From: Litchfieldia sinesaloumensis
GTDB taxonomy: Bacteria; Bacillota; Bacilli; Bacillales; Bacillaceae_L
Length of the DNA stretch: 64,000 nt
Direction of reading: 5' to 3'
Assembly: GCF_900156865.1 (NCBI RefSeq)
Contig: NZ_LT732529.1
Location: 2,606,460-2,670,459, forward strand
Shown here: positions 2,079-56,205 of the stretch, one piece after another
Layout: each line of letters starts with the position of its first letter
How positions within the stretch are numbered: position 1 is the stretch's first letter
Translations under genes and position numbers: made by a program
The notes under the pieces: model-generated
The model's input: the letters and a program-made list of their open reading frames with translations, nothing else
Databases searched by the model: none
Told to the model about the DNA's origin: nothing

Positions 2079-2080
2079 TA

Positions 2081-3441: not shown

Positions 3442-3463
3442 AGGCTGTTTTAATTGTGGAGAC

Positions 3464-3494
3464 AAAAAAAGCACTGTGATTAAGTGCTTTTTTT
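3464..3494. terminator. Bidirectional intrinsic terminator
   Basis: AAAAAAAGCACT (3464-3475) pairs perfectly with AGTGCTTTTTTT (3483-3494). A-runs and T-runs on both sides serve the plus-strand set ending at 3441 and the minus-strand carboxypeptidase, whose stop codon lies in the loop. Confidence 0.85.
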
Positions 3495-37797: not shown

Positions 37798-37826
37798 AAT
37801 GCTGACACGTTAATGTCAGCATTTTT
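37798..37826. repeat. Left copy of a 29-bp direct repeat (terminator palindrome) bounding the polysaccharide island
   Basis: Hairpin ATGCTGACA/TGTCAGCAT around CGTTAA plus five Ts, identical over 29 bases to 54896-54924 and in the same orientation. It acts as the terminator of the preceding gene. Between here and 37921 there is only the terminator region of the GH59 gene. Confidence 0.9.
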
Positions 37827-37921
37827 TTCTAAACTCTCTAAACTAAATATTTCGTTTTTATGGGACAGTATGGTCTAGCTTTCCAAAGGCTTTACTTTTC
37901 ATAAAAAAACAGAACAAACTA

Positions 37922-40900
37922 TTATTCATCTGTTTTATTTGTTTCTAATCCCTGTACCGCCGTTTGTAAATTTAATTTTGCAATTACAACTTGTTCCAAT
38001 GTACTTTGTGGATTCTTAAGGACAGCTTTTGCATGTTGCAAAGCTTTATGGAATGTTTTCCAACTATCTTTCGTATAGTCTTTATGACTTTTCCCTTTAT
38101 GCTCTTCGTAAAGTGACTCCAACGCTTCCTTATTTACTTCCACTTTATTTCGTCCTTCAATTACATCAATACCATCTATTATAAAGGTACCACCCTTTAC
38201 AACTACTTTTGTCGTATGCTTGCTATCTAAAAGTCCACGAATATTATATGATGTTTGTCTATCTCCTTTTGAATTAATTCTGTAATCTGAGTCAATTAAA
38301 ATATCATCTACATAAACGTCAATTAGAGCGTCTGATGTAGATCCAAATAAATTGAAACCTGAACCTTCAAAAGAGAAAATCATGCTACTGCTAGGGCCTT
38401 CATATTTAGGTGAACTGTAAATATTTACTCCACGATAATCCATGAAGGTATCTAATCTCTCATTATCCTTAAGGGAGACCTTCAAAGTATGTGGCTTCTC
38501 CTCAAGCCCCCTAATAGAAAACCTTATGCCAGTATTGGAATCTACTGCATGATTGCCTAAGTCTTCACCATCAAGTTCAAAATTATATTTCGATTTTTCT
38601 CCAGTTCCCGCCAAATAATCAATTCCCGAACCTGTGAAATTAATTAAAATATAAGGATCATCATCAAAGTTTGCCCAGGCATTTGTATTGTTTGAACCCC
38701 ACACATTGTTCTTCCTAAAAGCATATACGGTATTGTCTTTATCACCGATTAAACTTTCATCATCTTGAATTTTAACAATCTCATTTGCACCCAATTTTTT
38801 AACAGCCAGTATAGGATCTGTGGTTTCGATCTCAACTTTTGTTAAACTAGTCCAACTTTCCTTAGCTACAACTTTTAGAGTATGTTCTTTATCTTCAAGA
38901 TTGTCTACTGACCATACCATTTTTTCCATACTGCTGTTATTGATGTAGCTTGCTTCTCCAACCAATTCGTCATCTAAAAAGATATCAGCTCTACCGTTAT
39001 TAGGATTTGCTTCTCCAAATAACCTGATTTCAGTTCCCTTAAATTTTAGTTCAAAGTAAGCTCCATCTGACCCCCAAGCATTCCCACTATTGGATGACCA
39101 ATTACCGGAGTAAAAAATTTTATTTAATGTTCCTTGGACAGTTGTAGAATCTCTATGTCCAACAGTTATGCCATTCCAAACCGGGATATTAGTCCTAGCT
39201 GTCATTTGAGTACGATTATAATGGGCATAACCCGCTTGATTATATTCCCAATCCCCTACATACCCAATTGGATACCATTTATCTGAGTTGTTAAGAGCTT
39301 CTTCTTCCGTTTCATATTTTTTCCCTTGTGCACTATCATATTTACTTGATTCATAGGTGTATCCCTTAATAGGCTCAATTAAAAGATTATCAAAAAGTGT
39401 TTCATAATAACCAGAACCTATGACCACTCGCCCTGCCATTACCGTCGAATCCTCGTCAGTGTATGTGGCTAACTCCTTTTCGTCCAAATAAAGCGTAAAA
39501 TTATTTTCTCTTGCTTCAAAGCCTAGTTTATGCCAAACTTTGTTATCAAATTTTTCTACTACTCCACTTTTTACAACATTTCCTAGTTTAAGAATTTCGT
39601 ATTTACCGTTTGAGTAAATACGTGCATTATATGGTGCATATGAGTCAGTTCCTCCAGCCTTCACTTGCCTAACACCAATTAATGCGTAATTACTTCTTCC
39701 TTCTACTTCAGGTGTATGTGTATCCAGCAAGAAATCATAGGAGACTTTATAATTGACCCAACGATGATCTCCTATTGTTGTATTCGGATTACTATTTGAC
39801 GCTGATCCGTCTCTTCCTCCCCAAACTGCCCAGTCAGCACCTATAATGTCATGGGAAATTTTCTGTTGAAGCATACTACCGTGTTTTTTTGCTTCAGGTA
39901 TTTTAATTTCAGTTCGTACTGCACTGCCACTTTTAACAGGCTTAGTTGCATTTTTAACAACTTCAAAGGCCCCTAATTGGTCGGTTGTATATCGCGGTGT
40001 ACCTCCACGTCGTTCAATATAATCTCTACCCTTTTCATCCGTTGAATATTTATCATATTCAAAGTCATCTTTATATGGTAATGGCATAATTGTATCTTTT
40101 GCTAAATCAACAGGTTGTGATTGATACTCAAAATCTTCAACTTCTGATTCCTTGTCCAATGTTGTGATAGTCATAATTGAATACGGCTTTACCTCTATTT
40201 CATATTCACCGTTTTCGGGATGAATCGTATTAATATTTTTGAACCAGTTTGCATCATAACTCTCTCCTGCATCAGGTCCTCTTGTTTCCCACACATAGAT
40301 TGGTGCATTTTCTTTTCCATTCAGATTTTTTGCTTGTATTTTATATTTACGTGTTTGTTTTGTGTTATTTGCAAATACGGTTGTATAGTCATCCGTATTA
40401 GGATCTTTTAATGTTAGGTAGTTATGTGTACTTGTGTCAACATCTACCCCTCCATCAAAAAAGGCCCCGTCACTAAATGTAGCATCTTTAATATACATCC
40501 AGCGCTCGTTTTCTGGGGTGGAACGATCGTCATATCCTACAAAATTCATCACATGCCTTACACCTTGTAACCCTCCGTCTACTTCATAAAAACCAGACCA
40601 TGGGTCAAATGCGCTAATTAAATGTTTAGGATTATATGCTGCTCCTTCATAAAAGGATGCAACTGACGGTTGAAAATCAAATGAAACAGCATTTAATGGA
40701 TGTTGCCCCGCTCCTGTCCATGTATAGACTGAGATGATTCGTGATGTTACATCGATGATTCCTGCCTTTCCACCAAGACCATTATAATGAGGCTCCATCT
40801 TTTCACGATAACGTGCATTAATCATTGGTGCTATCCCCTCAGACACCCATATTTCTTTTGGTTGATCGCCTTCAGAGATTAATTTATTTTGTAATTGTGT

Positions 40901-41725
40901 TAGTTCATTGGATCCTGTGATACCATAATGTGAACTAATCACGTCTATTTCATCTATCAGGTCAGGATTCTCAAGTAACGTACGGCTTATAGTTGACGTA
41001 TCACGGTATCCATCTGCGGCAACTAATTTTATATCTTTATAATCCTTATCATAATTGGGCTCTTGTTTAATTTTCGTAGTGAAATACTTCAGCCATTCTA
41101 TCTCGTTTCTACCATTATTATTTTGTGCCCTCTCATTTTGTGAGATGCCTATATAATCTAATTTAAATCCAAACTCTTCGTATACTGCGTCAATTGTCTG
41201 TTTATACCATTGATAACGATTTTCATACTCCTTGTTCTCGGCACCTTCCCAAGTAAAACGAGGTTCTCCCCATCGAAGAATTTCAGTTGTTATATCTGGA
41301 TTTATTGATTTCGCATCTGCTGCAAATTGAAAACCAGCACCTCTAAGTACATTTGCAGGTTCATCTGCATATCGCATTGTTGCTGGCTCAGTTCCTGAAG
41401 ATGAATTAACATCAGCTCCTAATTCCACTTTAACATGCGTCAAACCAGCTCCTGTGTCTCTGTTAAATAGTTGATTCATAATCTCCCAATATTTCTCTGG
41501 GTGTTCTTCCTTATAATCTAGTAGTAATCTTGATGTATTATTTGCCGTTACCGTTCCAAAGCCTTTAAAACGATTATATTCATCCATATTATTTCCATCA
41601 ATCGTGATTGTCTTTGTTATGACATCAGCTTTGGCTTCTGTAGAATCGATGATTGCAATTGATCCAATAAGCATGGTTGTTATACACAAAGAACCAATGA
41701 GTTTTTTTAACTTATTTTTTGCCAT
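37922..41725 (-). CDS. Secreted multi-domain GH59 (galactocerebrosidase-like) glycoside hydrolase
   Basis: 1,267 residues. Signal peptide (to about residue 33), TIM barrel about 48-430, beta-sandwich about 430-570, then a concanavalin-like lectin domain to about 790. This is the same order as animal GALC, with matching stretches such as KGFGTVTANNTSRLLLDY, HVKVELGADVNSSSGTEP and LPYKDDFEYD. Likely acid/base Glu198 (IGISQNERA) and nucleophile Glu296 (IWVSEGIAP). After these come three repeated beta-domains (KFKGTEIRLFGE, NFTGSGIDYLAG, SFEGSGFNLFGS) that look like carbohydrate-binding modules, and a C-terminal FIVAR-type helical domain. It probably releases beta-linked galactose from a polymer outside the cell. 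Separate transcription unit with a cre-like site and a palindrome upstream. Confidence 0.82.
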   Translation of the reverse strand: MAKNKLKKLIGSLCITTMLIGSIAIIDSTEAKADVITKTITIDGNNMDEYNRFKGFGTVTANNTSRLLLDYKEEHPEKYWEIMNQLFNRDTGAGLTHVKVELGADVNSSSGTEPATMRYADEPANVLRGAGFQFAADAKSINPDITTEILRWGEPRFTWEGAENKEYENRYQWYKQTIDAVYEEFGFKLDYIGISQNERAQNNNGRNEIEWLKYFTTKIKQEPNYDKDYKDIKLVAADGYRDTSTISRTLLENPDLIDEIDVISSHYGITGSNELTQLQNKLISEGDQPKEIWVSEGIAPMINARYREKMEPHYNGLGGKAGIIDVTSRIISVYTWTGAGQHPLNAVSFDFQPSVASFYEGAAYNPKHLISAFDPWSGFYEVDGGLQGVRHVMNFVGYDDRSTPENERWMYIKDATFSDGAFFDGGVDVDTSTHNYLTLKDPNTDDYTTVFANNTKQTRKYKIQAKNLNGKENAPIYVWETRGPDAGESYDANWFKNINTIHPENGEYEIEVKPYSIMTITTLDKESEVEDFEYQSQPVDLAKDTIMPLPYKDDFEYDKYSTDEKGRDYIERRGGTPRYTTDQLGAFEVVKNATKPVKSGSAVRTEIKIPEAKKHGSMLQQKISHDIIGADWAVWGGRDGSASNSNPNTTIGDHRWVNYKVSYDFLLDTHTPEVEGRSNYALIGVRQVKAGGTDSYAPYNARIYSNGKYEILKLGNVVKSGVVEKFDNKVWHKLGFEARENNFTLYLDEKELATYTDEDSTVMAGRVVIGSGYYETLFDNLLIEPIKGYTYESSKYDSAQGKKYETEEEALNNSDKWYPIGYVGDWEYNQAGYAHYNRTQMTARTNIPVWNGITVGHRDSTTVQGTLNKIFYSGNWSSNSGNAWGSDGAYFELKFKGTEIRLFGEANPNNGRADIFLDDELVGEASYINNSSMEKMVWSVDNLEDKEHTLKVVAKESWTSLTKVEIETTDPILAVKKLGANEIVKIQDDESLIGDKDNTVYAFRKNNVWGSNNTNAWANFDDDPYILINFTGSGIDYLAGTGEKSKYNFELDGEDLGNHAVDSNTGIRFSIRGLEEKPHTLKVSLKDNERLDTFMDYRGVNIYSSPKYEGPSSSMIFSFEGSGFNLFGSTSDALIDVYVDDILIDSDYRINSKGDRQTSYNIRGLLDSKHTTKVVVKGGTFIIDGIDVIEGRNKVEVNKEALESLYEEHKGKSHKDYTKDSWKTFHKALQHAKAVLKNPQSTLEQVVIAKLNLQTAVQGLETNKTDE

Positions 41726-41911
41726 GCAAAGATTTCTCCTTTCCCTATTCTTATTAATTTTGTTAAAACTATTTACTAAGAATTTTTTCTTCCCCTCCTC
41801 TATTAAACGTGATTATGTTAGCTGGGGAGATATCTCCTACCAGTTCTAACCATCGTTCTTATTTGACCATCCTAAAAGGCCCATTCGCTATTTAGCGTTT
41901 TATAGGACTTT

Positions 41912-41953
41912 TGTATTATCTGATTTTTCAGATAATACATGGATACGCTTTCA
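41912..41953 (-). promoter_or_regulatory. Palindrome and cre-like site upstream of the GH59 gene
   Basis: A perfect 12-bp inverted repeat (TGTATTATCTGA, TTTT, then its complement; 41912-41939) directly abuts TGGATACGCTTTCA (41940-41953), which fits the CcpA cre consensus with one mismatch. The palindrome lacks a T-run on the minus strand, so it is more likely an operator than a terminator. The rest of 41726-42036 has no gene. Confidence 0.5.
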
Positions 41954-42030
41954 TTATTTCACATTCCTTATCATCTTCTATACTAATTTATTGACTACAT
42001 TTACTACTTTTTTTACATGTTCTATTATTT

Positions 42031-42063
42031 AAAAAAGAACCTGTCTTTTTAGACAGGCTCTTA
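42031..42063 (-). terminator. Intrinsic terminator after the heparinase II/III-like gene
   Basis: AAGAACCTGTCT pairs with AGACAGGCTCTT (one mismatch), followed on the minus strand by TTTTTTA. Confidence 0.85.
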
Positions 42064-42072
42064 TACTAAAAT

Positions 42073-43902
42073 TCATAAATAGGTAAAAGTAAATTCTACT
42101 GCAATAAATTCATCTGCTTCCTTCACAATAAAATCAAGTATAAAGAAATTTTCAGTTTCACCAAAGTGATTAATAAACTCTTGTGGTCGTAAAACAAATT
42201 CTAGTTGGTTGGCATCATACGTTATTTTTAGTTTTTGCTCCCCTTCTACTAGAATAATTCCACCATTCAATTTCGCGATTTTAAGTGCAGGAGTAATAAA
42301 ACGTTCTACAATGGATATAGGGGGGATAGTAAACTGGAATGTATCTCTTAAAATTAAACTAGTAACCTTCTTATTCCATTTAAATTCTCTTGTTAGCCCA
42401 TGTAATGTATCAACATTATACGTTTTCTCCAGATTCATTACTATTTCGTCAATATCTTCCCCTGTTTTTACATTCTTTATAGTAGCAAAACTTGACCGAC
42501 CTTCAACTTGATAAGAGTTATTAATTATAGGTACAGAATGCCCTTGTGAACCGTTACATACGAATGTATATCTCTCAGCACCGAAATAACCATCACAATA
42601 CATTCCACTCCCCAAATCTTTTAATAGAGTTTCACCTTGCTTCTGTAAGATAAAATGTCCCACATCATTATGATTATGTGGTTCATCATTGTGTCCTCCT
42701 TTACAAGCAAAGACCGAGTCATCGTATCTAGATATAAACCATTGGGAACTCGGTAGATAAAATGTATCATTCTTCCACGGATTCCCCACTTCATCTGCAT
42801 TAAACCATAGTAGATTTCGAATGGCAGGTGCCCACCTACTACAATGATCTTCTGTATAGTGCGCTCTTAGGCCAATCTCTGGTACTTCAAAATCAGGATA
42901 CAGTCGTTTAAGATAGTGACTAACCCCTAGAAATACAGATGCTGTCTGAGTGGAATCAGAAAAATTAACAACTTGGTCCTTATAAGTGAAGCATTTTTGC
43001 TGAAAAAGGGAGATTTGATGGACTTTTTCTGACTGAAATAAATCAATGGAATTTGCTGTTTTTTTCTTGAGTAAATCTGCAAAATACACAAAGTATCCGA
43101 AACCGTATTGCCAGTAACCGTACCCCTCCAAACACGCCCCATCATCATTAAAACCTTCTAAGTAGTATTCAATTGCACTTAATACACGTCCCAAAATGGA
43201 TGAAAGCATTTCTTCATCCTTAACTAGATGTATAGCGGCCGAACCAATCGAACCACCACAAACCGCAGCCCAGTTATGTGTGGACGTTTCCCACTCAAAA
43301 TTTGTTTGGTTACAAAATGGTAGTAAGACTCTTTTATATACTTCTTCAGTCATCCTCCGTTTTACTAACGGATCAATAAGATTCTCACCAATTTTTAATA
43401 TTTCGCTAAGTGTAAATGCCGTCTCAGCAGAAAATAAGTCAATCGTATAAATAGGTTGATAAATACTCCCATCAACCACATCCTCAATTTCACTTTCCAA
43501 TTCTTTTCTATTAGTAAGGTGTGCAGGCAATGCCCATGTATATTCATTACAAATGGACCAAATGGTATTGTGTAATTCTTGAAGATACTCAGGTTCACTC
43601 GGCTCAAGCAAAGCCATGATGGCAAAAGTATTCAACCTTTTTCTTTTTTCAAAATATACCCGCTCATATTCCAGACGCAAACCGGAATCTCTAAAAATGG
43701 TAAACATTGAAAATGTAGGTTCCTCAATCGGTTTCCCCAGCAATCGGTTTGCTTCAATCCTAATTTCATCAAGTAAAGGCTGATAAGCTGCCTTTTTCTT
43801 AATTGAACTAAACCAACAATCCTGCTCATTTTGTGAGGAGAATAACAAAGAATAATGACTATTAGTTAATAAACGCTTAATTTCTCCCGCATATAAAGAC
43901 AT
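42073..43902 (-). CDS. Heparinase II/III-family protein (probable polysaccharide lyase)
   Basis: 609 residues, no signal peptide, so cytoplasmic. Residues 1-380 form an (alpha/alpha) toroid with THNWAAVCGGSIGSAAIHL and CLEGYGYWQYGFGYFVYFADLL; residues about 390-600 are a beta-sandwich with the family motif GGHNDEPHNHNDVGHFILQ and a GAERYTF segment. Heparinase II/III-type lyases (PL12, PL15, PL17, PL21 and relatives) cleave uronate-containing glycans by beta-elimination, leaving unsaturated uronyl ends. Those ends are exactly what the GH88 enzyme of this locus removes. Intracellular location implies action on imported oligosaccharides. The CAZy family cannot be fixed by eye. Confidence 0.82.
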   Translation of the reverse strand: MSLYAGEIKRLLTNSHYSLLFSSQNEQDCWFSSIKKKAAYQPLLDEIRIEANRLLGKPIEEPTFSMFTIFRDSGLRLEYERVYFEKRKRLNTFAIMALLEPSEPEYLQELHNTIWSICNEYTWALPAHLTNRKELESEIEDVVDGSIYQPIYTIDLFSAETAFTLSEILKIGENLIDPLVKRRMTEEVYKRVLLPFCNQTNFEWETSTHNWAAVCGGSIGSAAIHLVKDEEMLSSILGRVLSAIEYYLEGFNDDGACLEGYGYWQYGFGYFVYFADLLKKKTANSIDLFQSEKVHQISLFQQKCFTYKDQVVNFSDSTQTASVFLGVSHYLKRLYPDFEVPEIGLRAHYTEDHCSRWAPAIRNLLWFNADEVGNPWKNDTFYLPSSQWFISRYDDSVFACKGGHNDEPHNHNDVGHFILQKQGETLLKDLGSGMYCDGYFGAERYTFVCNGSQGHSVPIINNSYQVEGRSSFATIKNVKTGEDIDEIVMNLEKTYNVDTLHGLTREFKWNKKVTSLILRDTFQFTIPPISIVERFITPALKIAKLNGGIILVEGEQKLKITYDANQLEFVLRPQEFINHFGETENFFILDFIVKEADEFIAVEFTFTYL

Positions 43903-43960
43903 CTCGGTTCCCCCATATACTTTATTACCGCTAATTAAACACTATCTCTTCCAATAATAA

Positions 43961-43996
43961 AAATACGTCCTCCCTCAAATGCAAGAAGACGTTTTA
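43961..43996 (-). terminator. Weak hairpin terminator between DUF2264 and heparinase-like genes
   Basis: ACGTCCTC faces GAAGACGT (one G-T pair), with ATTTTTATTA following on the minus strand. It may reduce read-through into the downstream gene. Confidence 0.55.
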
Positions 43997-44028
43997 GATA
44001 TATAATGATAAATGTCTATTTAAAGTAC

Positions 44029-45885
44029 CTATCTTCTATTAATTTCAATTTTATCACTGTAAGGTAAACGGATGACTAGCCGATCAGGCATAATATTCAC
44101 TTCTGGTGTTTCATTCCATTCACTTACTGTAGTATTATTTAGTGCCTCACCATATACAGCACTAACAAGCCAATTACTACCAGTTAGAATTTTTGTTTTC
44201 GCAGTTGGAATAATCGTACGAGAATGTAGTAGATTTGTGTTTGCATTTGGATATATGAGTTCCGTTTTACCATCAGCTTGAAGACACTTGATACCAGAAG
44301 CACCCCATGGCATATATGCGATGCATCCCTTTTCGCTCTCAGTAAAATCAAGTGATACATTGCTGTTCTTACCCTCAAGTCCTAGGGCAAAACCACCTTC
44401 TGCACAATCAAGTTCTCTATTTGAATGAATACTATGAATCCTCACATGCCACGGAACTCCTGGAATAATCCATGTCATGATTTCAACATCATGCCAAGGC
44501 TTCCAGCGCGTATATATATAATTATCTTCTATAACAAATTCCTCACTACATCTTTTTACTCGGTAAATATTATCTCCTTCACTTAATGCAAGTGTAGAAT
44601 CAAATGCACCTTGTGCCAAGCCCCATTCAGCTCTTGGTACACTAAATCCAAAAGTATTTGAGTAGACAAATTTTTCGTATTTGGCAGATGTATGGGTATG
44701 ATCATTTGTTGACCGATGACCAGAATTAAAAGCCATAATATGTTCATTTTTTTCATCATGATAAATGATGAAATGTGGTTCTTTTTGAACAGATTTAGCT
44801 TTTAATGTGGGGTAGCTTTCTTCTTCTACTCCCCAAAAAGGATGTTCTTCAGGCAATGCCAAAGGTAAGAAAGACTTTAGAGACCAATATGGAGAACCTG
44901 GAGAATTATAATTTTCACCGACTATTAAATTCGGGTATGTATATCCGATTGTCAGAATTCCGCTATCATTAAAGATTGGTTGTTTCATCCACCATCTTAT
45001 ATTTCTTAGTAATAAACCCTTCATAACTCCTAATGGAAATGGTTCAATTCCTGCATATATAGCCGCACTCCAAAATGCAGACTGAGCAAAGCGATATGTC
45101 ATACTTCGACCATATGGAATAGAAGAACCATCAGCAGAAGACCAATAGATGAAATCCTTCGCAAAAGCTTCTGCCCGTTCCTTATAAACCTGAGCGCGCG
45201 ATGAATCTTCATGTTCCATTAGTCTTGCATATATAAGAGAGAAATAGTGAATTGCAAAAGGAATATAGTAATCTGAATGCCCACCTTCTCCATCAGAATA
45301 CCAACCATTTGATATATAAAAGTCATCTATTCGATTTAAATTGGTTTCTATAACCTCTTTTTCAAAGTGTTGACCAACATTTTTCAGTCCCAAGTTAACT
45401 AATACCGGGAAGAATAACCAGTTGCAATCCCATACTTTGTATTTATTAATTTGACGTAACCAATTCGCAAAATTATTCTTCTCTTCCACCGATAGTGGAT
45501 CCCATACTTTTTCCGGGATCAGGAGAAGAGCTAGACCAAAGGCCGCCATTTCAACTATGCGTTGATCATATTCATTAATATCGCCCCAATATTCTTCGTG
45601 ATTGGGATTTGTTCCATTTCTAATTCCTTGAAGGTGCACTTCCCAGAGATCATAGTTCTCACTTGTATTCACAAGATATGGAACTAGTCCCCACAAAATT
45701 CTCGAAAACCCTTCCATCTCAGCAATAGAGTCAGAATATGCAGCACTTGTATTCCCTAGTTTTAGTCGAGCCAATCCCTTACTGTAAAAGGGTTTTATTG
45801 GATCGCATATTTGCTTTAGTAAAATACAAAAGTCTTCTCTTGTTTTAATAGGATTCGTTTTTATGGGTGAATGATAAGTATTCAT
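44029..45885 (-). CDS. DUF2264 family protein (probable uronate-active glycoside hydrolase)
   Basis: 618 residues, no signal peptide. The DUF2264 N-terminal signature is clear: YSKGLARLKLGNTSAAYSD, AEMEGFSRILWGLVP, then WGDINEYDQRIVEMAAFGLALLL and DCNWLFFPVLVNLGL, an (alpha/alpha) barrel about 1-380, with a beta-rich C-terminal half (SGHRSTNDHTHTSAKYEKFVYS). Some DUF2264 proteins have, to my recollection, been reclassified as beta-glucuronidases (GH154), which would suit this locus; this needs checking. AAGGAG precedes the ATG. It lies 51 bp after the GH88 stop in the same operon. Confidence 0.78.
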   Translation of the reverse strand: MNTYHSPIKTNPIKTREDFCILLKQICDPIKPFYSKGLARLKLGNTSAAYSDSIAEMEGFSRILWGLVPYLVNTSENYDLWEVHLQGIRNGTNPNHEEYWGDINEYDQRIVEMAAFGLALLLIPEKVWDPLSVEEKNNFANWLRQINKYKVWDCNWLFFPVLVNLGLKNVGQHFEKEVIETNLNRIDDFYISNGWYSDGEGGHSDYYIPFAIHYFSLIYARLMEHEDSSRAQVYKERAEAFAKDFIYWSSADGSSIPYGRSMTYRFAQSAFWSAAIYAGIEPFPLGVMKGLLLRNIRWWMKQPIFNDSGILTIGYTYPNLIVGENYNSPGSPYWSLKSFLPLALPEEHPFWGVEEESYPTLKAKSVQKEPHFIIYHDEKNEHIMAFNSGHRSTNDHTHTSAKYEKFVYSNTFGFSVPRAEWGLAQGAFDSTLALSEGDNIYRVKRCSEEFVIEDNYIYTRWKPWHDVEIMTWIIPGVPWHVRIHSIHSNRELDCAEGGFALGLEGKNSNVSLDFTESEKGCIAYMPWGASGIKCLQADGKTELIYPNANTNLLHSRTIIPTAKTKILTGSNWLVSAVYGEALNNTTVSEWNETPEVNIMPDRLVIRLPYSDKIEINRR

Positions 45886-45920
45886 TAAAAAGAGTCACTC
45901 CTTATTACCCTTTAAATAAA

Positions 45921-45934
45921 TTTAAGCGCTCACT
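45921..45934 (-). promoter_or_regulatory. Possible cre (CcpA) site before the DUF2264 gene
   Basis: TTTAAGCGCTCACT, one mismatch to the degenerate cre consensus, in the gap between the GH88 and DUF2264 genes. A chance match cannot be excluded. Confidence 0.35.
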
Positions 45935-45936
45935 TA

Positions 45937-47064
45937 TTACCAAAATAGTTCACTATTACCCTTTAAAATTGCAAGGCCTTCTACAAAATAATAATCTCCA
46001 TAAATAAGCGGGACATCTAAATTCTTGCCCTCCGGAAAATGACTAGTACCACTAAGAATCAAGCCATCCTGACTTGGATTATCCCAATCGCCATAGTTTT
46101 CGTACAATGATTTTAGAATGTTAATACCGGTAGTTTCATAGATTTTGGCTTCTGAAGTTGGGACCTGTTTAGCAATTAGTAGCAATCCACATGCAGCAAT
46201 TGCTCCTGCAGAAGAATCACGGTACTTCGTAACCCCTTCTGGTATTCTAAAATCCCAATAGGGTACATAATCATCAGGTAAATTTGCAATAAAGAAATGA
46301 GCAACTTTTTTAGCTGCTTGTAAATACTTTTCCTCTTTTGTATTTTTATAGAGTAAAGACATTCCATAAATTGCCCAACCTGCACCTCTTGACCATGCTG
46401 ATTCAGGAGCATACCCCTGGCCCCCGATTGCCTCAATCCTTTCACCACTTTCAGGGTCGAAACGAATGATATGATGGACAGCGCCATCCTCTTGAATAAA
46501 ATGAGCTAATACGGTCTCACCGTGTCTTTTAGCTACATGACTAAATCTCGGATCACCTGTGACTTCGGTCGCCCAAAACAATAGTGATAAATTCATTAAG
46601 CAATCAATAATGGCCCAACCAGAATTATCCTCTCCTTCATACCAAGGATTCCATGCACGAATATAGTTTCCAGATGTATTAAAGCGCCCCATCAGCAAAT
46701 TCGCGACTAGGAGCGCACGTCTTTTGGAATCCTCATTCCCAGTAATCTTAAATCCTGCCACACTTGTTAATGTCCAGATAAAACCCATATCGTGGTCGAG
46801 CTTATAATAATCTGTAATCACATTATCGAGTTTCTCTTCACACTTTTCAGCAATTTCTTTATACGACTCATCCTTATTATTTCTGTATAATAACCAAAGT
46901 AAGCCTGGCCAAAATCCTGCTGTCCACCAATGAGGTGCTTCTAATTGATAATCACCATTCACACATGCATGTGGAAAATTTGCACCAATTTTTTTACTTG
47001 TTCTATTTATCTTTTTATTCACCTTTATCCAAGCTTGTTCTACCCATTCTAAGTTGTTAGTCAT
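45937..47064 (-). CDS. GH88 unsaturated glucuronyl hydrolase
   Basis: 375 residues from the ATG at 47064 (AAGGGTGA ribosome site); upstream in-frame ATGs lie inside the regulator gene and are rejected. (alpha/alpha)6 barrel with GH88 motifs HWWTAGFWPGLLWLLYRN, LDHDMGFIWT (the catalytic Asp region), IIDCLMNLSLLFWATEVTG, GYAPESAWSRGAGWAIYG and YRDSSAGAIAACGLLLIA. It hydrates and removes the 4,5-unsaturated uronic acid left at the non-reducing end by lyases, in the cytoplasm. This GH88 replaces the GH105 enzyme of the B. subtilis yes locus, which suggests a substrate other than rhamnogalacturonan. Confidence 0.9.
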   Translation of the reverse strand: MTNNLEWVEQAWIKVNKKINRTSKKIGANFPHACVNGDYQLEAPHWWTAGFWPGLLWLLYRNNKDESYKEIAEKCEEKLDNVITDYYKLDHDMGFIWTLTSVAGFKITGNEDSKRRALLVANLLMGRFNTSGNYIRAWNPWYEGEDNSGWAIIDCLMNLSLLFWATEVTGDPRFSHVAKRHGETVLAHFIQEDGAVHHIIRFDPESGERIEAIGGQGYAPESAWSRGAGWAIYGMSLLYKNTKEEKYLQAAKKVAHFFIANLPDDYVPYWDFRIPEGVTKYRDSSAGAIAACGLLLIAKQVPTSEAKIYETTGINILKSLYENYGDWDNPSQDGLILSGTSHFPEGKNLDVPLIYGDYYFVEGLAILKGNSELFW

Positions 47065-47119
47065 ACCAATCACCCTTTTTTTGTTTTTAAAAATCAGCCC
47101 TAATCTAAAAAAGTAAGAT

Positions 47120-48733
47120 TTATGCTCTTTCCCCTCTATATTCATTGGGGGTAATTCCAACATAGTTTTTAAATACTTTAATGAAATAACTTTGGTTGTC
47201 ATAACCAAGTCTTTCGCAAATCCGTCCGACTGGATCAATGGTTTGCTCTAGTAGTTCTTTCGCTCTATTAACCTTTGACTTAGTAACATATTCAACAAAG
47301 GTTTCTCCAATCTCTTTTTTAAACAATCGGCTAAAGTAACTGGGATTTAAGAATAGGTGTCCCGCAACTTCATCAAGACTAATTTTCTTTTCAATGTTAA
47401 TAGATACGTATTTACATGCTTCAATGACTTCCTTACGTCGAGTATGAGAGGTAACCTCCCCAATGGCGAACAATAGCGAATCAAAATATTTAACTAACCA
47501 CTCTTGCAATTCATAGACTGATTCAATACCCAGTACTTCTTCATGCAAAACCTCAACTGTATAAGTAGATCCAAAAAATTGTAATGCCTTTAATTTCACC
47601 TTAAGATCTAACAGTAACTTTAATACCCATTCCTTTACCACATCAGAAGAATACTCTTTATCCTGAAAAATCTCTATCCATTGATTTACTAAAGGGAGTA
47701 CTTTCTTTAAATCCTTTTCCAAAATAAGATTTCTTATTTCAACTGACGCTACATCGTACCAAGAGTATAAACCTTCTGTAATATTTGGCTTAGCTTGTTT
47801 TTGTTGAATCTCGCCTCTCTTCATATAGAAGCGTTGATTTGGACTATTTAGCAAACTCTCACACGTAGTTTTGAAAGATCTTTGGCTTTCGATAACAGTT
47901 CCGATAATAAATGAGATTGAGATATTTAAAGTATGTAACACTTTTCTTTGAATTTTAAATAAAAACTCAGTTGCCATACTAACTGAGTCGGACTTTAAAG
48001 TCTTCCTATAAGGAAAGAATAGGAACGATTCTTTATCATGAAAAGTAAAATGTACTGCTTTGCTATCACTAAATTCTTTAAGCTCCTCCCCGATTACATT
48101 TTGAATAGAAAATAGTAAAGTTTCCTCTGATCCGTAGTTTTTCAATGCTGCCCGATAATCCTGAATAAAGCAAAGGGCCGGTATATACTTTGTATTTTTT
48201 ATATCTAAACCTAGTGAATAAGCTTCTGTATACCACTCTTCACGGTTATAAATTGGTTGATGAATGGTCTTTCGAAGAAAGTCTTGTTTGATTGCTTCTT
48301 TATTTCGCTCAACAATATGCTCTATTTCAATCTCTTTTCGTTTTTTTAAGTCTTCAATGTCAAGATGTTCTTTGATCTTAAGGAGTAGGGAGATTAAGTC
48401 AACTGGATTTAGGGTATCTTTTAAGATGTAATCCTTAACATTAAGTCTAATGGCTTGTTGAGCGTAATCAAAATCACTATGACAGGTTAATACACATACC
48501 TGGATATTTTCTTTCATTTTTTTTACCTTTTCAATTAACTGAATACCATTCATTTTAGGCATACCAATATCAGTTATCAGAATATCAGGCATATCTGTCA
48601 TTGCATACTGCAGCGCACTTGCTCCGTTTTCATGTGTACTTTGAAGTTCTAAACCAAGCTCTTCCCATTCTATGGTCTCAGACAACAACTCTAAAACAGG
48701 ATAATCATCATCTACTAGCATCACTTTATACAT
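47120..48733 (-). CDS. YesN-type response regulator with AraC DNA-binding domain
   Basis: 537 residues from the ATG at 48733 (GGGAGGG upstream), overlapping the kinase gene end by 8 bp. Receiver 1-120 (VMLVDDD, Asp55 in ILITDIGMPKMNG, Lys in YILKD); long middle region about 130-430 of unknown fold; C-terminal AraC domain about 438-535 with two HTHs (SLDEVAGHLFLNPSYFSRLFKKEIGETF and DPVGRICERLGYDNQSYFIKVFKNYVGITPNEYR). In the YesM/YesN family it activates the neighbouring transporter and hydrolase genes when the oligosaccharide is sensed outside. Confidence 0.92.
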   Translation of the reverse strand: MYKVMLVDDDYPVLELLSETIEWEELGLELQSTHENGASALQYAMTDMPDILITDIGMPKMNGIQLIEKVKKMKENIQVCVLTCHSDFDYAQQAIRLNVKDYILKDTLNPVDLISLLLKIKEHLDIEDLKKRKEIEIEHIVERNKEAIKQDFLRKTIHQPIYNREEWYTEAYSLGLDIKNTKYIPALCFIQDYRAALKNYGSEETLLFSIQNVIGEELKEFSDSKAVHFTFHDKESFLFFPYRKTLKSDSVSMATEFLFKIQRKVLHTLNISISFIIGTVIESQRSFKTTCESLLNSPNQRFYMKRGEIQQKQAKPNITEGLYSWYDVASVEIRNLILEKDLKKVLPLVNQWIEIFQDKEYSSDVVKEWVLKLLLDLKVKLKALQFFGSTYTVEVLHEEVLGIESVYELQEWLVKYFDSLLFAIGEVTSHTRRKEVIEACKYVSINIEKKISLDEVAGHLFLNPSYFSRLFKKEIGETFVEYVTKSKVNRAKELLEQTIDPVGRICERLGYDNQSYFIKVFKNYVGITPNEYRGERA

Positions 48734-50549
48734 TAGAACTGTTCCCTCCCCTAGAAATAAGCATAAGAATCTTCGTTCCCTTTCCTTCAACACTCGTTAT
48801 TTTCATCGTAAAGGCCTCGCCAAATGTCATACGCATTCTTTCATATACATTCGATAAGCCTAGGCTTGAGAAACCTTTCTTATTCGAAACATTAACGATG
48901 TCCGTCTTAACAGTTAGCTGTTGGTTAACATATGATAAAGTTTCTTCGTCCATGCCTTGCCCATTATCTTCAACGTTAATAATAAAGTCATTTCCTCTAA
49001 CATAGGCTTCAAGAGTAATAGTACCGGTACCTTGGTTTAAGCCATGAATAATTGAATTTTCAATAATAGGTTGTAAAATAAATCGTGGGAATTCTTCCAT
49101 GTGAGCAGTAGGTGAAACGTTTACTACGAGCTCGACCTGTTCCTTTTGTCTCATATTCATTATTTTTACAAAGTCCTCGACGATTTCCACTTCATCCTTA
49201 AAAGGAATCATTCCTTTATCCTTATCTATCGTCATACGTAATAATTTGGATAAGGAGCTAATCATTTCAGCGCTCTCATAATCTCCTTTTCTCATAACTT
49301 TCATTCGAATTGAATTTAATACATTAAAAAGGAAATGGGGATTAATTTGGGCCTGTAACATAGCAAATTCTGCCTTACGCTTTCTGATTTGTGTTTCTGT
49401 AATCTCTCTAATCATTTCGTTAATTCGATCGAGCATAGAATCAAAAGAATGGGCAAGTCGCCCAATTTCATCCTTGGTCCTTATTTGGGAACGAACTTTT
49501 AAATTACCACTTTGTACTCTTTCTACAACATTTCCCAAGCGTACCAGTGGTTTCGTTATTGTTTGAAGTAGATATGTTAATAGTAGAATAAAAATAATAA
49601 ATGAGATCACTTGTGCAATAAATACTTTATTAAAAATTGAATTTAATTTGGATATTGAATGATTATATTGGGCTATAGATACTAGTTCCCAACCATTATA
49701 AGGAATTTTATGATTACTATATAAATAGTCTTGATTTAAAATTTTAATAATGTTCGGGAAACTTTTCTCGCTAAGTTGGCTGATATACGGTGAAGCCTCT
49801 CCAATTCTACTGTTATCAGGATGTGATATGATTTGGTTTCCAGAATCCACCAACATCATTTCAGTTCCTCCAGGCATACTTTTAAAGGCTTGATTAATTT
49901 TATCCTCTAAGAGAGTCACAATGACATATCCATATATTTCAAAATTTGAATCTCGAAGAGTTCTTGCTACCGAAATTTGATATGGATGAAGTTTTTGATC
50001 GGATTTAAACACCGTTGGTTGGGAACCAATCCATATCGTCTCATACCCATACGAATCTTCTAATTCTTTAAACCATGATTCATTAAATAAATTTTCTGGA
50101 TTATACTCCCATGTTGAGTAATTTGTATAATGTTTTCCGTTTTTTAGCAAAATCGTAACATATGATTTTTCACCCAATAATGTAATATTTTCGATTGTTT
50201 TTATAACCTTTGAATGTTCCATATAATCCTGGTAATCATCTTCTGGGACATATTCATTTATATTTTCTATCTTTGCATTTTCCTTTAGGATCATATTTAT
50301 CTCAGAATCTAGTTGGACAAAATTCGCAGCGTAGAGCATGTCATCAAAAATTTTTGTTACATATTCTCCTGCAAGTTTAAGTTCCCGATTTGCATTTAGT
50401 ATCGCCTGCTCTTTCAAGGCATCTTTTGTATAATAACTATAAAAATAAAGTGTTATTATAGTTGGTATTACAATACATATAACAGTTGTTAAAATAACTT
50501 TAAAACGAAAAGAACGGGGCGACAGCATTTGCTGTATCCGTTTCCACAT
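48726..50549 (-). CDS. YesM-type sensor histidine kinase
   Basis: 607 residues: helix about 16-38, extracellular double-Cache-like sensor about 40-300, helix about 305-328, HAMP, then His_kinase with AQINPHFLFNVLNSIRMKV (phospho-acceptor His) near 395 and an ATPase domain with QPIIENSIIHGL and VEDNGQGMD. It pairs with the overlapping AraC-type regulator and would sense the glycan or its fragments outside the cell. Part of the island regulatory pair. Confidence 0.92.
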   Translation of the reverse strand: MWKRIQQMLSPRSFRFKVILTTVICIVIPTIITLYFYSYYTKDALKEQAILNANRELKLAGEYVTKIFDDMLYAANFVQLDSEINMILKENAKIENINEYVPEDDYQDYMEHSKVIKTIENITLLGEKSYVTILLKNGKHYTNYSTWEYNPENLFNESWFKELEDSYGYETIWIGSQPTVFKSDQKLHPYQISVARTLRDSNFEIYGYVIVTLLEDKINQAFKSMPGGTEMMLVDSGNQIISHPDNSRIGEASPYISQLSEKSFPNIIKILNQDYLYSNHKIPYNGWELVSIAQYNHSISKLNSIFNKVFIAQVISFIIFILLLTYLLQTITKPLVRLGNVVERVQSGNLKVRSQIRTKDEIGRLAHSFDSMLDRINEMIREITETQIRKRKAEFAMLQAQINPHFLFNVLNSIRMKVMRKGDYESAEMISSLSKLLRMTIDKDKGMIPFKDEVEIVEDFVKIMNMRQKEQVELVVNVSPTAHMEEFPRFILQPIIENSIIHGLNQGTGTITLEAYVRGNDFIINVEDNGQGMDEETLSYVNQQLTVKTDIVNVSNKKGFSSLGLSNVYERMRMTFGEAFTMKITSVEGKGTKILMLISRGGNSSNV

Positions 50550-50624
50550 AACATCAACCTCCTAGTTGAAGAAAGATGAGGGCAGAATCGGTTTTTACGC
50601 CCCTTACTATTATTCTATCAACAA

Positions 50625-51986
50625 TTATTTATTATTGTCGATTATCTCCTGAGCTCGTTCTTGCGTTGCCTTAATTGTTGCTTCAATATCTTGATCGCCT
50701 AGTATCAGTTTTTCATACTCCTCATTAACTACTTTATATAGTTCAGATTGATATGAAACTGGTGGAATAATCTTAGATGACTTCGCGCTTTGTAATACTT
50801 TTACTAGTGAATCCCTATCTACCTTTTCTGGGTTAACAGTACCTGCAAGAATACCGTCAACTATTTCACCAAGCTCATCTTGGCTTACACCATTCCATGA
50901 TGGAATATTTTTCCCTTGTACCATTTGCCCCTCAGAAGTATACCAACGTATAAATGTATATGCCTCTTCCTTATGCTCAGAATTTGCAGCTACTGACATA
51001 AAGTCAGTTGTTACAGGTGTATAACCGCCTTCATCTCCTGCATCGTTCTTAGGGTATGGAGCTACTGCTACATTAAATTCAAGTGGGAACTGCTCCGTTC
51101 CACCTAATTCAGTGTTCATCCAGCTTCCAATAACAATGGTACTAGAGTCTTGGTTAAAGAACTGATTTCGATAGTGTAGCTTTTGTGAAATAATATCTGT
51201 ATATGGAACTGAAGACTTGTCTTCTTTCTCCATTTGAACACGCATTTCTAGTGTTTTACGGAAAAGTGGACTATCAAAGTTTGATGTGCCATCTGCTTTA
51301 ACAAACTCAGTATTTTCTTCTTCACTTGCAAGTGCTAGTTTCATGAACTCCATCCAACCACCACCTTGAGGACCATGGAAATATGTTCCGTAATGATCAT
51401 CAGTAGTTAGTTTTTTTGCATAATCCATGAACTCATCCCAAGTCCAATCTGTCGGAACTTCTAGACCTGCTTCATCTAAATGATCCTTATTTAATAGGAC
51501 ATACCAAGGATTAAACTTACCAGGTAGAGCATAATATTTTCCATCAATTGTAGTATCTACCTTGTATTCTTCGTTTAATTTATAGCCGTCTTTTTCAATA
51601 AACTCATCGATGGGGGCAACCATACCTAGTGCTACGCGCTGAGCATAACTAGCTGGATCACTAAACATCAATACATCAAGTTGTTCTCCAGAAGCAGCTG
51701 CTAAGTCTAGCTTTTGAAGCGATTCTTGTGTGTCACCTTTTTCACTCAAAATAACGAGGTCCACATCTATGTTAGGGTACTCCTCTTCAAAAGCGGCAAT
51801 GGTTTCCTTCCAGTTATAGCTTTCTTCGTTACCATGAGTATGAAACTTAATGGTAACTGCTTCTTCCGTCTTTTTACTTGTGTCTTTTTCGTTAGATGAG
51901 CTTTCTTCCCCTCCACCACTACATCCAGCTAATACTCCAATTAGCAAGGATGATGCTAAAAGTGATAACCAAAATTTCTTTTTCAT
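50625..51986 (-). CDS. Extracellular sugar-binding lipoprotein of an ABC importer (YesO-like)
   Basis: 453 residues: lipobox LLIGVLAGC (Cys near 22), Ser/Glu/Lys linker, then a family 1 solute-binding protein with VTIKFHTHGNEESYNWKETIAAFEEEYPNIDVDLV, GKYYALPGKFNPWYVLLNKDHL and the aromatic-rich ligand cleft. It should capture oligosaccharides released by the secreted enzyme and deliver them to the two permeases encoded upstream. No ATPase gene is present; a shared MsmX-type ATPase elsewhere in the genome is expected, as for the yes and msm transporters. Confidence 0.92.
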   Translation of the reverse strand: MKKKFWLSLLASSLLIGVLAGCSGGGEESSSNEKDTSKKTEEAVTIKFHTHGNEESYNWKETIAAFEEEYPNIDVDLVILSEKGDTQESLQKLDLAAASGEQLDVLMFSDPASYAQRVALGMVAPIDEFIEKDGYKLNEEYKVDTTIDGKYYALPGKFNPWYVLLNKDHLDEAGLEVPTDWTWDEFMDYAKKLTTDDHYGTYFHGPQGGGWMEFMKLALASEEENTEFVKADGTSNFDSPLFRKTLEMRVQMEKEDKSSVPYTDIISQKLHYRNQFFNQDSSTIVIGSWMNTELGGTEQFPLEFNVAVAPYPKNDAGDEGGYTPVTTDFMSVAANSEHKEEAYTFIRWYTSEGQMVQGKNIPSWNGVSQDELGEIVDGILAGTVNPEKVDRDSLVKVLQSAKSSKIIPPVSYQSELYKVVNEEYEKLILGDQDIEATIKATQERAQEIIDNNK

Positions 51987-52035
51987 AAAACGTATCCCCC
52001 TTTTACTTTATTATCGCTCTCCATTTCTGAAAAGA

Positions 52036-52070
52036 AAGCCTTTACAAATCGAATTATAGCAAAGGCTTTA
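52036..52070 (-). terminator. Hairpin between permease and binding-protein genes (attenuator, or promoter region)
   Basis: AAAGCCTTT and AAAGGCTTT enclose a 16-base loop that contains, on the minus strand, TATAAT. It may attenuate permease transcripts and also carry a separate promoter for the binding-protein gene. Confidence 0.5.
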
Positions 52071-52129
52071 CCACTTTAAATGGAAATAATTTTACTTATA
52101 TTGCGAATAATTTTACATTTATACCAGCA

Positions 52130-52963
52130 TCATCCCTTTACTCCACCCAATGCAATACCTTCAATTACCTGTTTTTGACCAATGATAAAGACGATGATTA
52201 ATGGAAGAATTGCTGATACTGCAGCAGCCATTATTAGGGAGTAAAATTCACCATTGATTGTTGTAAACTTTTGCATAGCCAACTGTATTGTATATAAAGC
52301 ATCCGTCCGTAAGAAGATTAATGGATTTTGGTAATCATTCCATGTCCATATAAATCGTAGAATCGCATATGTTGCAACAGCAGGCCTTACAATTGGTAGC
52401 GCAACTGACCAGAAAATCCTAAAATGACCTGCTCCGTCAATTTTAGCCGCTTCTATATACTCATTTGAAATAGTCATAAAGAATTGACGTAACATAAATG
52501 TCCCTAAGACGCTAAAACTTCCTAATAGAATAAGTCCTAAATGGCTATCAAATAAACCAATATTACGATAAAGAATAAATTGTGGAACTAAGCTAGCTTG
52601 AGGTGGAACCATATACGTTGCTAATACTATTAAAAATAACCATTTTCCGGCTGGAAACTTAACTTTTGAAAATCCATAAGCTGCAAAAGCTGATACTGCA
52701 GCAGAAACCACAGTTGTTAAAACAGCCACCTTTATTGAGTTCCAATAGTAGGTATAGAATGGATAATCACCAAACCAGACTTCCTTATAATTATTCAATC
52801 CATTCCACCGTTCAGGAATCCATTGTATCGGAAACTTAAATACATCCGCTTCAATTTTAAAAGAGGTGGATAGCATCCAAACAAAAGGTAACAAGAACAT
52901 GATACTAGCCATGAATACAATAATTGTAATTATTACTTTCTTTATATCAATTTGCTTTTTCAT
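52130..52963 (-). CDS. ABC sugar transporter permease, MalG/YesQ type
   Basis: 277 residues from the ATG at 52963, which follows GGGGGGATATT. Six helices, with the ATPase-contact EAA loop as EYIEAAKIDGAGHFRIFWSVALPIVRPAV near residues 180-210. The ending GIALGGVKG is typical of MalG-like subunits. Forms the membrane channel with the preceding permease, 10 bp upstream. Confidence 0.93.
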   Translation of the reverse strand: MKKQIDIKKVIITIIVFMASIMFLLPFVWMLSTSFKIEADVFKFPIQWIPERWNGLNNYKEVWFGDYPFYTYYWNSIKVAVLTTVVSAAVSAFAAYGFSKVKFPAGKWLFLIVLATYMVPPQASLVPQFILYRNIGLFDSHLGLILLGSFSVLGTFMLRQFFMTISNEYIEAAKIDGAGHFRIFWSVALPIVRPAVATYAILRFIWTWNDYQNPLIFLRTDALYTIQLAMQKFTTINGEFYSLIMAAAVSAILPLIIVFIIGQKQVIEGIALGGVKG

Positions 52964-52973
52964 AATATCCCCC

Positions 52974-53915
52974 CTAATAATTAACCCACTTCTTCTGTCC
53001 AATCCATTGGAATAACGTAATAACAAGCACGATAAAGAATAGAACAACAGCCATTGCTGACGATAAGCCTATATCAAGGTTAACAAAAGCAGTATCGTAT
53101 AAGTGCCAAACTAGCATACTTGTCGAATGCATTGGCCCACCTTTAGTAAGTACAGCTATTAAATCAAAAACTTTAAAGGTAGAAATAATTCCAGTGATGA
53201 GTAAGAAGAAAGATGTTGGTGACACCATTGGAAATGTAATCGTTTTAAATTTAACCCATGCGTTTGCGCCATCCATATCGGCGGCTTCATATAATTCTTT
53301 TGGAATAGACTGAAGACCCGCAATGTAGATGATTAGATTAAATCCGACTGAAATCCAAATTTGAATTAACATGACTGAGATTAAGGCGAAGTCTGGATCG
53401 GCAATCCATTTTGGCGGATCCGTTACACCTAAAGCCATTAATGTCTGATTTATTGGTCCAGCAGATGGATGAAATAACACTTGCCAAACTACAGCGATTG
53501 CCACAACACTCGAGATATATGGCATAAAAAATGCAACTTTAAAATAGCTCTTCATATAAACGTTCTTATCAATGATTACAGCTAAGAATAATGAAAAAAT
53601 CATACAAATTGGAACTGTTAATAAAAAGAGACCGTTGTTTAAAAGAGACTTTATAAATACTTTATCCCCAAAAATCTCCTTAAAGTTTTCAAACCCTATC
53701 CATTTCAACTGATCAATATTTTGGATAAACTTCCAATCTGCAAAACTGAGAATGAAAGTTGCAAAGATTGGTAGTAACACAAGTACTGAAACACCTATTA
53801 GCATAGGTGATACAAATAAAAAACCGGCTAAACTTTCATCTTTTTTAAATTTAGATTTTTTCTTATTTGAGAAAGTAACTTTTGAGGATGTCGTTACTTC
53901 TACCTTTGTACTCAC
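52974..53915 (-). CDS. ABC sugar transporter permease, MalF/UgpA/YesP type
   Basis: 313 residues from a GTG at 53915 with AGAGAGGTGA upstream, preferred to the ATG at 53945. Six helices; a Ser/Lys-rich cytoplasmic start (TFSNKKKSKFKKDESLAG); EAA loop ELYEAADMDGANAWVKFKTITFPMVSPTSFF near residues 215-245. First gene of the permease-permease-binding-protein set; a terminator separates it from the YesL-like gene. Confidence 0.93.
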   Translation of the reverse strand: MSTKVEVTTSSKVTFSNKKKSKFKKDESLAGFLFVSPMLIGVSVLVLLPIFATFILSFADWKFIQNIDQLKWIGFENFKEIFGDKVFIKSLLNNGLFLLTVPICMIFSLFLAVIIDKNVYMKSYFKVAFFMPYISSVVAIAVVWQVLFHPSAGPINQTLMALGVTDPPKWIADPDFALISVMLIQIWISVGFNLIIYIAGLQSIPKELYEAADMDGANAWVKFKTITFPMVSPTSFFLLITGIISTFKVFDLIAVLTKGGPMHSTSMLVWHLYDTAFVNLDIGLSSAMAVVLFFIVLVITLFQWIGQKKWVNY

Positions 53916-54033
53916 TAAAACATCACCTCTCTTAGTAATATACAATTATTATAGGGAAGATAGATTCACAATACTTAACAGTATTTTGTGTAAAAATGCA
54001 AAATTTTTTACACATTTATTATTTCTTGAAATC

Positions 54034-54082
54034 AAAAAACACACTATAAATTCCACAATACTTATTGGGAAACAGTGTGTTT
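54034..54082 (-). terminator. Intrinsic terminator after the YesL-like gene
   Basis: AAACACACT and AGTGTGTTT enclose a 28-base loop; a T-run (TTTTTTG) follows on the minus strand. It separates DUF624 from the ABC genes. Confidence 0.7.
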
Positions 54083-54106
54083 ATTGTCTATTCAAAATTA
54101 AAGGGG

Positions 54107-54727
54107 TCATTCACCTTTAGGTGTAACGCTAGTAAATAGAGAGTATGAAAGATACATTAATGCAAAGCTTATACCACTTCCGAGAAAAAGAATACCCACA
54201 CCCGGAAACAGTAAACCAAGAAAGACACATGTAACTACAGAAATGATCATAACAAAGGTCCGAAACGGAAATGATGCTCCAAGCAGTAGAGCAGACTTAA
54301 GATAATGAAAAATCGACCCTTCAAAATGAACGTATACAGGAAAAATATAAATTAGCACAACAGTTAATAGCATGGCACATATTATGAAGCAGCCCAACAT
54401 GAAATAATAGAATGTACCTTGCATTGAATTAATTAACACCCAATCAATATACATAAGTGTAAACACAGTCATAAATAATAGCCATAAGAGATTTGCTTTT
54501 CTAAATTCCCTTTTATAAATAGACCAAAATGTTGAAAGTATTGAAAATTCACTTTCCCCTAAAATCCATTTCCGGACAATGGAAAACAGAGCTATAGTTG
54601 AAGGAGCAAAACCAAAAACAATGAATCCGACTAAGGTGAAAGCGACCCATAATACATTGACACATGCAAATTTTGTAATCCATTCACAAACTCGGAATAA
54701 ACCTCCCATCAAACCACTTGTTTGCAT
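54107..54727 (-). CDS. DUF624 membrane protein, YesL-like
   Basis: 206 residues from the ATG at 54727 (GGAGGGG upstream). Six hydrophobic segments; opening GGLFRVCEWITKFACVNVLW and PSTIALFSIVRKWILGE are the DUF624 pattern. YesL-like proteins are nearly always encoded with carbohydrate ABC transporters of the YesOPQ type, but their role is unknown. It is the right-most gene of the island, 166 bp from the boundary repeat. Confidence 0.88.
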   Translation of the reverse strand: MQTSGLMGGLFRVCEWITKFACVNVLWVAFTLVGFIVFGFAPSTIALFSIVRKWILGESEFSILSTFWSIYKREFRKANLLWLLFMTVFTLMYIDWVLINSMQGTFYYFMLGCFIICAMLLTVVLIYIFPVYVHFEGSIFHYLKSALLLGASFPFRTFVMIISVVTCVFLGLLFPGVGILFLGSGISFALMYLSYSLFTSVTPKGE

Positions 54728-54895
54728 CACGACCCCTCCCTTATGGAAATAATAGATGAAAAATCAGTACTCCAAATATTACTTTTTTTACTCTTTTAAC
54801 AACAAAATTGACTTTTTAACTAAATAAAGCTTTCCATAGATATATAAATCATATTATCCAGTTAAATTCTGAGGGGTTGTCCTTATTTACAGAAG

Positions 54896-54924
54896 AATGC
54901 TGACACGTTAATGTCAGCATTTTT
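54896..54924. repeat. Right copy of the 29-bp direct repeat bounding the island
   Basis: Identical to 37798-37826 over 29 bases, same orientation. It is also the terminator of the DUF438 gene, whose stop codon is at 54933. Confidence 0.9.
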
Positions 54925-56159: not shown

Positions 56160-56205
56160 AGTAATTTCTCCTTTCAAAATGCTGTGTAATTCATCTGTTA
56201 TGATG

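Follow-up and report, generated by a model that had tools for sequence, protein, structure and literature searches.

Comparison of a 64,000-nt stretch of the Litchfieldia sinesaloumensis chromosome (hereafter the window) with its closest relatives shows that, in the relatives, the genes for a 149-aa protein and a DUF438/hemerythrin/PAS protein share one predicted bidirectional intrinsic terminator, and that, in the host lineage, a preassembled 17-kb operon predicted to act on glycans occupies that terminator, with 29-bp copies of it on either side. Polarised by the relatives, the arrangement is, on the evidence of sequence comparison, a real insertion at a terminator accompanied by duplication of that terminator, and an unusual variant of the direct-repeat-bounded island. 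As to mechanism, we tentatively favor in-place duplication of the recipient's terminator through a staggered break around the hairpin, to which we assign a probability of about 0.45.

The left terminator copy (37798..37826, unstranded) comprises 29 nt, with arms AATGCTGACA and TGTCAGCATT enclosing the loop CGTTAA, and is positioned downstream of the 149-aa gene on the plus strand and of the inserted operon on the minus strand. The right copy (54896..54924, unstranded) repeats these 29 nt immediately downstream of the DUF438 gene. The two are identical at 29/29 positions and directly oriented, as an earlier model-generated annotation (the sequence-only reading) had claimed, and extension to 32 nt retains 97% identity. 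Folding predicts a hairpin on both strands for each copy (z -6.5 to -8.2), while the right copy lacks a clean T-run toward DUF438 (CATTCTTCTG, compared with CATTTTTTATG in the relatives). If the 29-bp hairpin were a generic repeat, it should recur at many loci; allowing at most 3 mismatches, however, the window holds 2 matches against a mean of 0.00 in 100 shuffles, and the whole genome (4,556,449 b in 3 contigs) holds the 24-nt hairpin in exactly two places, 37798-37826 and 54896-54924. Among direct-repeat pairs spaced 0.5-100 kb in the surrounding 464 kb, outside an rRNA/tRNA-like cluster excluded by eye, the 29-bp pair is the longest, followed by a runner-up of 23 bp; a random 464-kb sequence of the same composition is expected to contain about 1e-6 pairs of 29-mers within 100 kb.

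The uninterrupted junction, which the sequence-only reading had predicted in related genomes, was recovered in three members of the genus (G001, G002, and G003), that is, in 3/3 relatives retaining both neighbors. In the window, the left neighbors are a DUF2243 membrane protein gene (36864..37331, plus strand), syntenic in all three, and the 149-aa gene (37346..37795, plus strand), which stops 3 nt before the ATGCTGACA hairpin; the DUF438 gene (54933..56177, minus strand) ends beside the right hairpin. The empty sites present the DUF2243 and 149-aa genes, a single hairpin reading ATGCTGACA-TTGAGC-TGTCAGCAT in window orientation, and then the DUF438 gene, with convergent stops 38 nt apart, as against 39 nt in the collapsed window site. 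The two genes therefore converge on one bidirectional terminator precisely as collapsing the repeats had implied. Against the 20-kb loci of these relatives, the window aligns piecewise in two blocks, one running from about 25-28 kb to 37826 and the other spanning 54893 to 61 kb; the two overlap in the relative by 32 nt, corresponding to the duplicated hairpin.

Beyond these three genomes, the flanks are unevenly retained. The DUF438 protein is 80-84% identical across seven same-genus relatives, its gene being found in 7/8 other genus genomes (missing from G004) and in 14/17 in the family. A search of nine genus genomes, including the host, with the 149-aa protein returned 72-74% identity in three relatives and 30-34% in the others. 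In G005-G008, one variant hairpin comes after DUF438, and no 149-aa gene is present there. The host, G001-G003, and G007 have identical hairpin arms, whereas the loop varies, being CGTTAA in the host and TTGAGC in G001-G003; the arms, too, are altered in G005, G006, and G008. In G007 (locus L098), the DUF438 stop is followed by a single hairpin and then, judged by eye, by the apparent last ~22 nt of the 149-aa gene. Nor do all relatives carry the island in place: no homolog of its DUF2264 protein was matched at E<=1e-60 in any of the other eight genus genomes. In a tree built from three genes of the locus, the host falls with G001-G003 (support 0.95) within the genus, and G007 is placed deepest, with weak support of only 0.68. 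With the host nested within the genus, the uninterrupted junction is most simply read as ancestral and the insertion as a derived gain. Accordingly, the earlier proposal, in which the segment entered at one ancestral terminator and the site was duplicated, is borne out by the one-hairpin site of all three relatives.

The inserted segment (37827..54895, unstranded) spans 17,069 nt between the repeats and carries ten minus-strand genes. In order of transcription, these encode a DUF624 protein (54107..54730), two ABC importer permeases (52974..53945 and 52130..53047), the solute-binding protein of an ABC importer (50625..51986), a dCache sensor histidine kinase (48726..50549), a response regulator with an AraC-type output domain (47120..48793), a GH88 unsaturated glucuronyl hydrolase (45937..47238, start codon uncertain), a DUF2264 protein (44029..45885), a 609-aa heparinase II/III-like lyase (42073..43902), and a GH59 protein with C-terminal lectin and FIVAR domains (37922..41725). 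The PDB relatives of the GH88 protein are unsaturated glucuronyl hydrolases (E 2e-71), and those of the DUF2264 protein include the glucuronate dehydratases 9o4u and 9nwf together with 8oi4, labelled a beta-galactosidase. The lyase had no Pfam match and is related to PDB 8r75/8r6z (E ~1e-29), and NCBIfam returned no match for seven proteins. The leader/promoter region (54731..54895, minus strand) contains, by eye, a AGTAAAAAAAGTA-like stretch common to homologous operons. Collectively, the gene content suggests breakdown of a uronic-acid-containing glycan, and the view of the segment as one functional module holds, in that it forms a ten-gene glycan operon with its own importer and two-component system.

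The sequence-only reading had also reported neither an integrase nor a transposase inside the island, and our scan of the ten operon ORFs, which covered sense ORFs of 90 aa or more, likewise detected no integrase, transposase, or recombinase domain. Only 95 nt separate the operon end from the left hairpin and 165 nt the operon start from the right one, so that neither gap has room for a mobility gene of the usual size. Composite transposon or IS features are missing too, with no transposase domain and no long flanking repeats, the repeat being 29 bp. Composition had been suggested as an island marker and was rejected, since GC is 34-36% inside and 34-41% in the rest of the window and hence not distinctive.

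A scan of genome contigs recovered 29 loci. In Litchfieldia salsa, the host gene order is kept for nine genes, DUF624 being the one not found; Bacillus sp. PS06 has nine genes in order, with GH59 some 13 kb off; and Metabacillus loci carry most of the module, partly reshuffled. The operon is hence absent from close relatives and syntenic in more distant taxa, as in a horizontally acquired catabolic island. In a six-protein comparison, the host operon is 71-75% identical to its eight nearest counterparts, and its tree position is weakly supported; on both counts we name no donor. Relatives of the DUF2264 protein below 60% identity occur on 263 plasmid records, many from Rhizobium/Sinorhizobium, with the best ten listed at 41-43%, and no DNA-level match to the island was found in 72,556 plasmid records. 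A phage carrier was discarded, as the GH59 query matched two phage records only across its C-terminal FIVAR stretch. In L. salsa, the operon is flanked by copies of a ~146-bp hairpin repeat that proved generic, with at least 42 matches in that genome (40 candidates scored out of 212). The counts for this repeat are at least 42 in G015 (40 candidates scored out of 212) and at least 41 in G016 (40 out of 260), with 13 weak partial matches in the genome of the window.

The window contains a second insert of 2.95 kb (~521-3494) with the same architecture and a different terminator. Its left hairpin (521..572, unstranded) pairs AAAAAGCACTT with AAGTGCTTTTTT across a long loop, and its right hairpin (3464..3494, unstranded; AAAAAAAGCACT GTGATT AAGTGCTTTTTTT) resembles the single copy of the relatives. 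The insert proper (573..3463, unstranded) has genes for GtrA and a D-Ala-D-Ala carboxypeptidase as its neighbors and carries ORFs at 822-2078, 2081-2854, and 2908-3441; the last encodes a DUF5381 protein, the 418-aa and 257-aa proteins had no family match over the cut-off, and no recombinase domain was found in the ORFs scanned. At the homologous site, G001, G002, and G003 lack the insert (3/3) and have one terminator, AGCACT-loop-AAGTGCT. The two copies in the host have diverged to a 12-nt exact repeat with different loops, which makes this case either older or less certain than the first.

To place both cases against a background, we compared 864 kb of the host chromosome with a whole contig of G001 (C33), of which 352 kb aligned, and found 32 clean indels (at least 1 kb on one side and at most 150 nt on the other). 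Two of the 32, the island and the second insert, have hairpins with an identical stem of at least 8 bp at both ends, compared with none of 992 control pairings of mismatched ends drawn from the same 32 (one had a common stem of at least 6 bp). This gives p 0.001-0.003, but the island had been chosen beforehand, and therefore only the second case counts as independent evidence; taken alone, at 1/31, it yields p 0.03 against 0/992 (stem of at least 8) and p 0.06 against 1/992 (stem of at least 6). None of the other 30 indels provided a third instance of twin terminators, and none appeared among 12 pairwise indel rows (about nine distinct events) within the G001-G003 clade. For the suggested new general mode of exchange, there is one further case in the window and no third in either survey. 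Among hairpin pairs, twins (identical stem of at least 9 bp with at least four G/C) make up 2 of 2,466 pairs spaced 1-20 kb and 5 of 50,735 pairs more than 20 kb apart; this excess of near twins (p 0.04) was set aside as weak, the count including the island itself and leaving out the second case, whose stem has too few G/C. The indel survey also recovered a 1.6-kb insert in G001 (C33, about 369.4-371.1 kb; near 11784-13459 in locus L130), bounded by direct repeats of 53 bp that overlap a tRNA-Arg gene. It is likely a classic integration remnant, and its recovery indicates that the survey is able to find classic integration.

Both copies of the island terminator share a lineage-specific loop, which makes copying of the recipient's own terminator a simpler account than import, and we infer that the second copy was made in place, as a target duplication. 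In the mechanism that we favor, the palindromic terminator would be cut in a staggered manner, with a nick at either base of the hairpin, as host structure-specific nucleases might make in an extruded cruciform; incoming operon DNA would be joined to both cut ends, and fill-in would copy the hairpin on each side. Cuts at the hairpin bases followed by fill-in are expected to duplicate the ~26-nt palindrome plus TTT, which is what is duplicated here. Such a break would require neither a mobility gene nor a particular stem and hence also fits the second insert. The left copy would preserve termination for both the 149-aa gene and the incoming operon, and the right copy, its T-run weakened, would still set DUF438 apart from the operon. 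Against this account stand the diverged copies of the second case and the altered arms of G005, G006, and G008. At the right junction (window 54877-54940), we also observed near-complementarity between the insert side and the chromosomal flank, which extends the hairpin outward, with 10/12 positions pairable, a degree reached by 0.16% of random flanks and spotted post hoc. The simple staggered-cut model does not predict this complementarity; it may be a sign of fold-back synthesis or have arisen by chance.

Among the alternatives, site-specific integration fares best, even if we judge it unlikely. Here, a tyrosine recombinase acting in trans, or since lost, would have used the terminator as attB and a circle of the operon with a matching attP. 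Direct repeats of 29 bp, a conserved intergenic site, and its single copy in the empty sites would all be accounted for. Arms of ~10 bp around 6 bp within a 29-bp repeat make a plausible core for a tyrosine recombinase, and the arms and 6-nt center of the terminator have this geometry; the tRNA-Arg insert, moreover, shows that the usual signature of this route is present in the same scan. It is countered by the lack of a recombinase domain in the scanned ORFs of either insert, by an attP that would need the same lineage-specific loop, and by the unrelated stems of the two inserts, which would require two specificities. As in integrase-borne islands and ICEs at tRNA 3' or other gene ends, a single site has given rise to direct repeats around foreign DNA, the site is empty in relatives, and the target would still function; unlike them, the target is an intrinsic terminator and the cargo a catabolic operon without a detected recombinase. 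Of four Phage_integrase matches in the host genome, two are of XerC/D size, one is in a 191-aa open frame, and one is beside groL, near 3892 kb (locus L190, around 9800-11107), where direct repeats copy the 3' end of groL and mark a likely integrated element. As its repeats are the groL 3' end, this resident element uses a different site from the 17-kb insert, and action of its integrase in trans was rejected. A casposon or Cas1-type insertion was likewise rejected, no Cas1 being found in the host genome (0/1) with a control query found in 9/14 genomes. Nothing in the genome comes within 3 mismatches of the B. subtilis dif sequence, so that the host's own dif was not located; the hairpin is unlike the B. 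subtilis sequence.

We regard homologous recombination through the ~29-bp terminator as somewhat more doubtful. Under this explanation, which comes closest to the wording of the sequence-only reading, a Campbell-type or transformation event would have drawn on a close relative carrying the operon beside the same terminator, yielding identical copies without a mobility gene. Recombination has a lower length limit close to 29 bp. The route presupposes a nearly conspecific donor whose hairpin had the same loop, however, and leaves the first insertion unexplained. A search with the exact arms and any 6-nt loop found the hairpin in 12 of 66 loci, all of them own or empty-site loci, and none of the island-homolog loci carries this hairpin as an exact match, several being short or not reaching both operon ends. 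In particular, the uronic-acid glycan operons of Litchfieldia and Metabacillus have the same genes and no ATGCTGACA hairpin, some of these loci also stopping short of both ends. Use of terminators as homology common to donor and recipient finds no support among the homologs examined, and the identity of a species-varying loop in both copies, together with the absence of the island's DNA from the plasmid records above, speaks against it as well.

It is highly improbable that the operon is ancestral and was lost from the relatives by deletion between terminator repeats. A precedent comes from Haloquadratum walsbyi, where strain-specific DNA lies between direct repeats of which the other strain has one copy, with no transposase, and where such indels between short repeats are read as deletions (PMC3119063). 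Those repeats are of 4-20 bp, in contrast to the 29-bp, whole-hairpin repeat and polarised gain described here; given a host nested in the genus, loss would demand about four independent events on the three-gene locus tree, and old copies should differ in the loop, as the orthologs do. A still slimmer chance attaches to coincidence or an assembly artifact, with two similar terminators of separate origin, one carried in by the operon: identical stems do occur among distant hairpin pairs at the low rate given above, whereas for the 17-kb island, and for this first case only, coincidence is refuted by 29/29 identity that includes the loop and by an expectation of ~1e-6 pairs, and misassembly is opposed by both copies residing in one 4.55-Mb contig, with both flanks aligning through the hairpin.

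Other elements share the type of target. Group IIC introns insert at intrinsic terminators, whereas the 17-kb insert has neither an Rfam match at gathering scores in 37300-55300 nor a reverse transcriptase domain in the operon ORFs scanned. For IS elements reported to target REP sequences, an extragenic palindrome is again the insertion target, but it is broken by the element, with direct repeats of 0, 2, or 6 bp (PMC1525189); here, the palindrome is intact on both sides and no transposase was found. Among the titles and abstract openings of the best-ranked literature matches, there was no report of islands flanked by duplicated terminators.

Staggered opening and copying of a terminator, as favored for the island, invites the wider and rather speculative proposal, which we hold to be doubtful, that foreign operons are captured at the palindromic bidirectional terminators of convergent gene pairs, through host-driven, integrase-free opening of the hairpin and its copying in full at each end of the incoming DNA. 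Were this so, the island would be insulated and could be removed without a scar by recombination through the repeats; were it a regular route, large operons could enter between convergent genes without mobility genes and leave the neighbors unharmed. Its signature would be twin terminators with identical loops and a single copy in relatives, which island finders based on tRNA genes or integrases would miss. One more twin pair in the host's own genome (C3 2797562/2807071, 9.5 kb apart, with 11-bp GGGATACT stems) was rejected as a candidate, as the G001 contig has no such hairpin and a search for an empty site gave none. This pair encloses a catabolic-looking operon, with ORFs that by eye appear Tct-like, DhaK/L-like, and PdxA-like.
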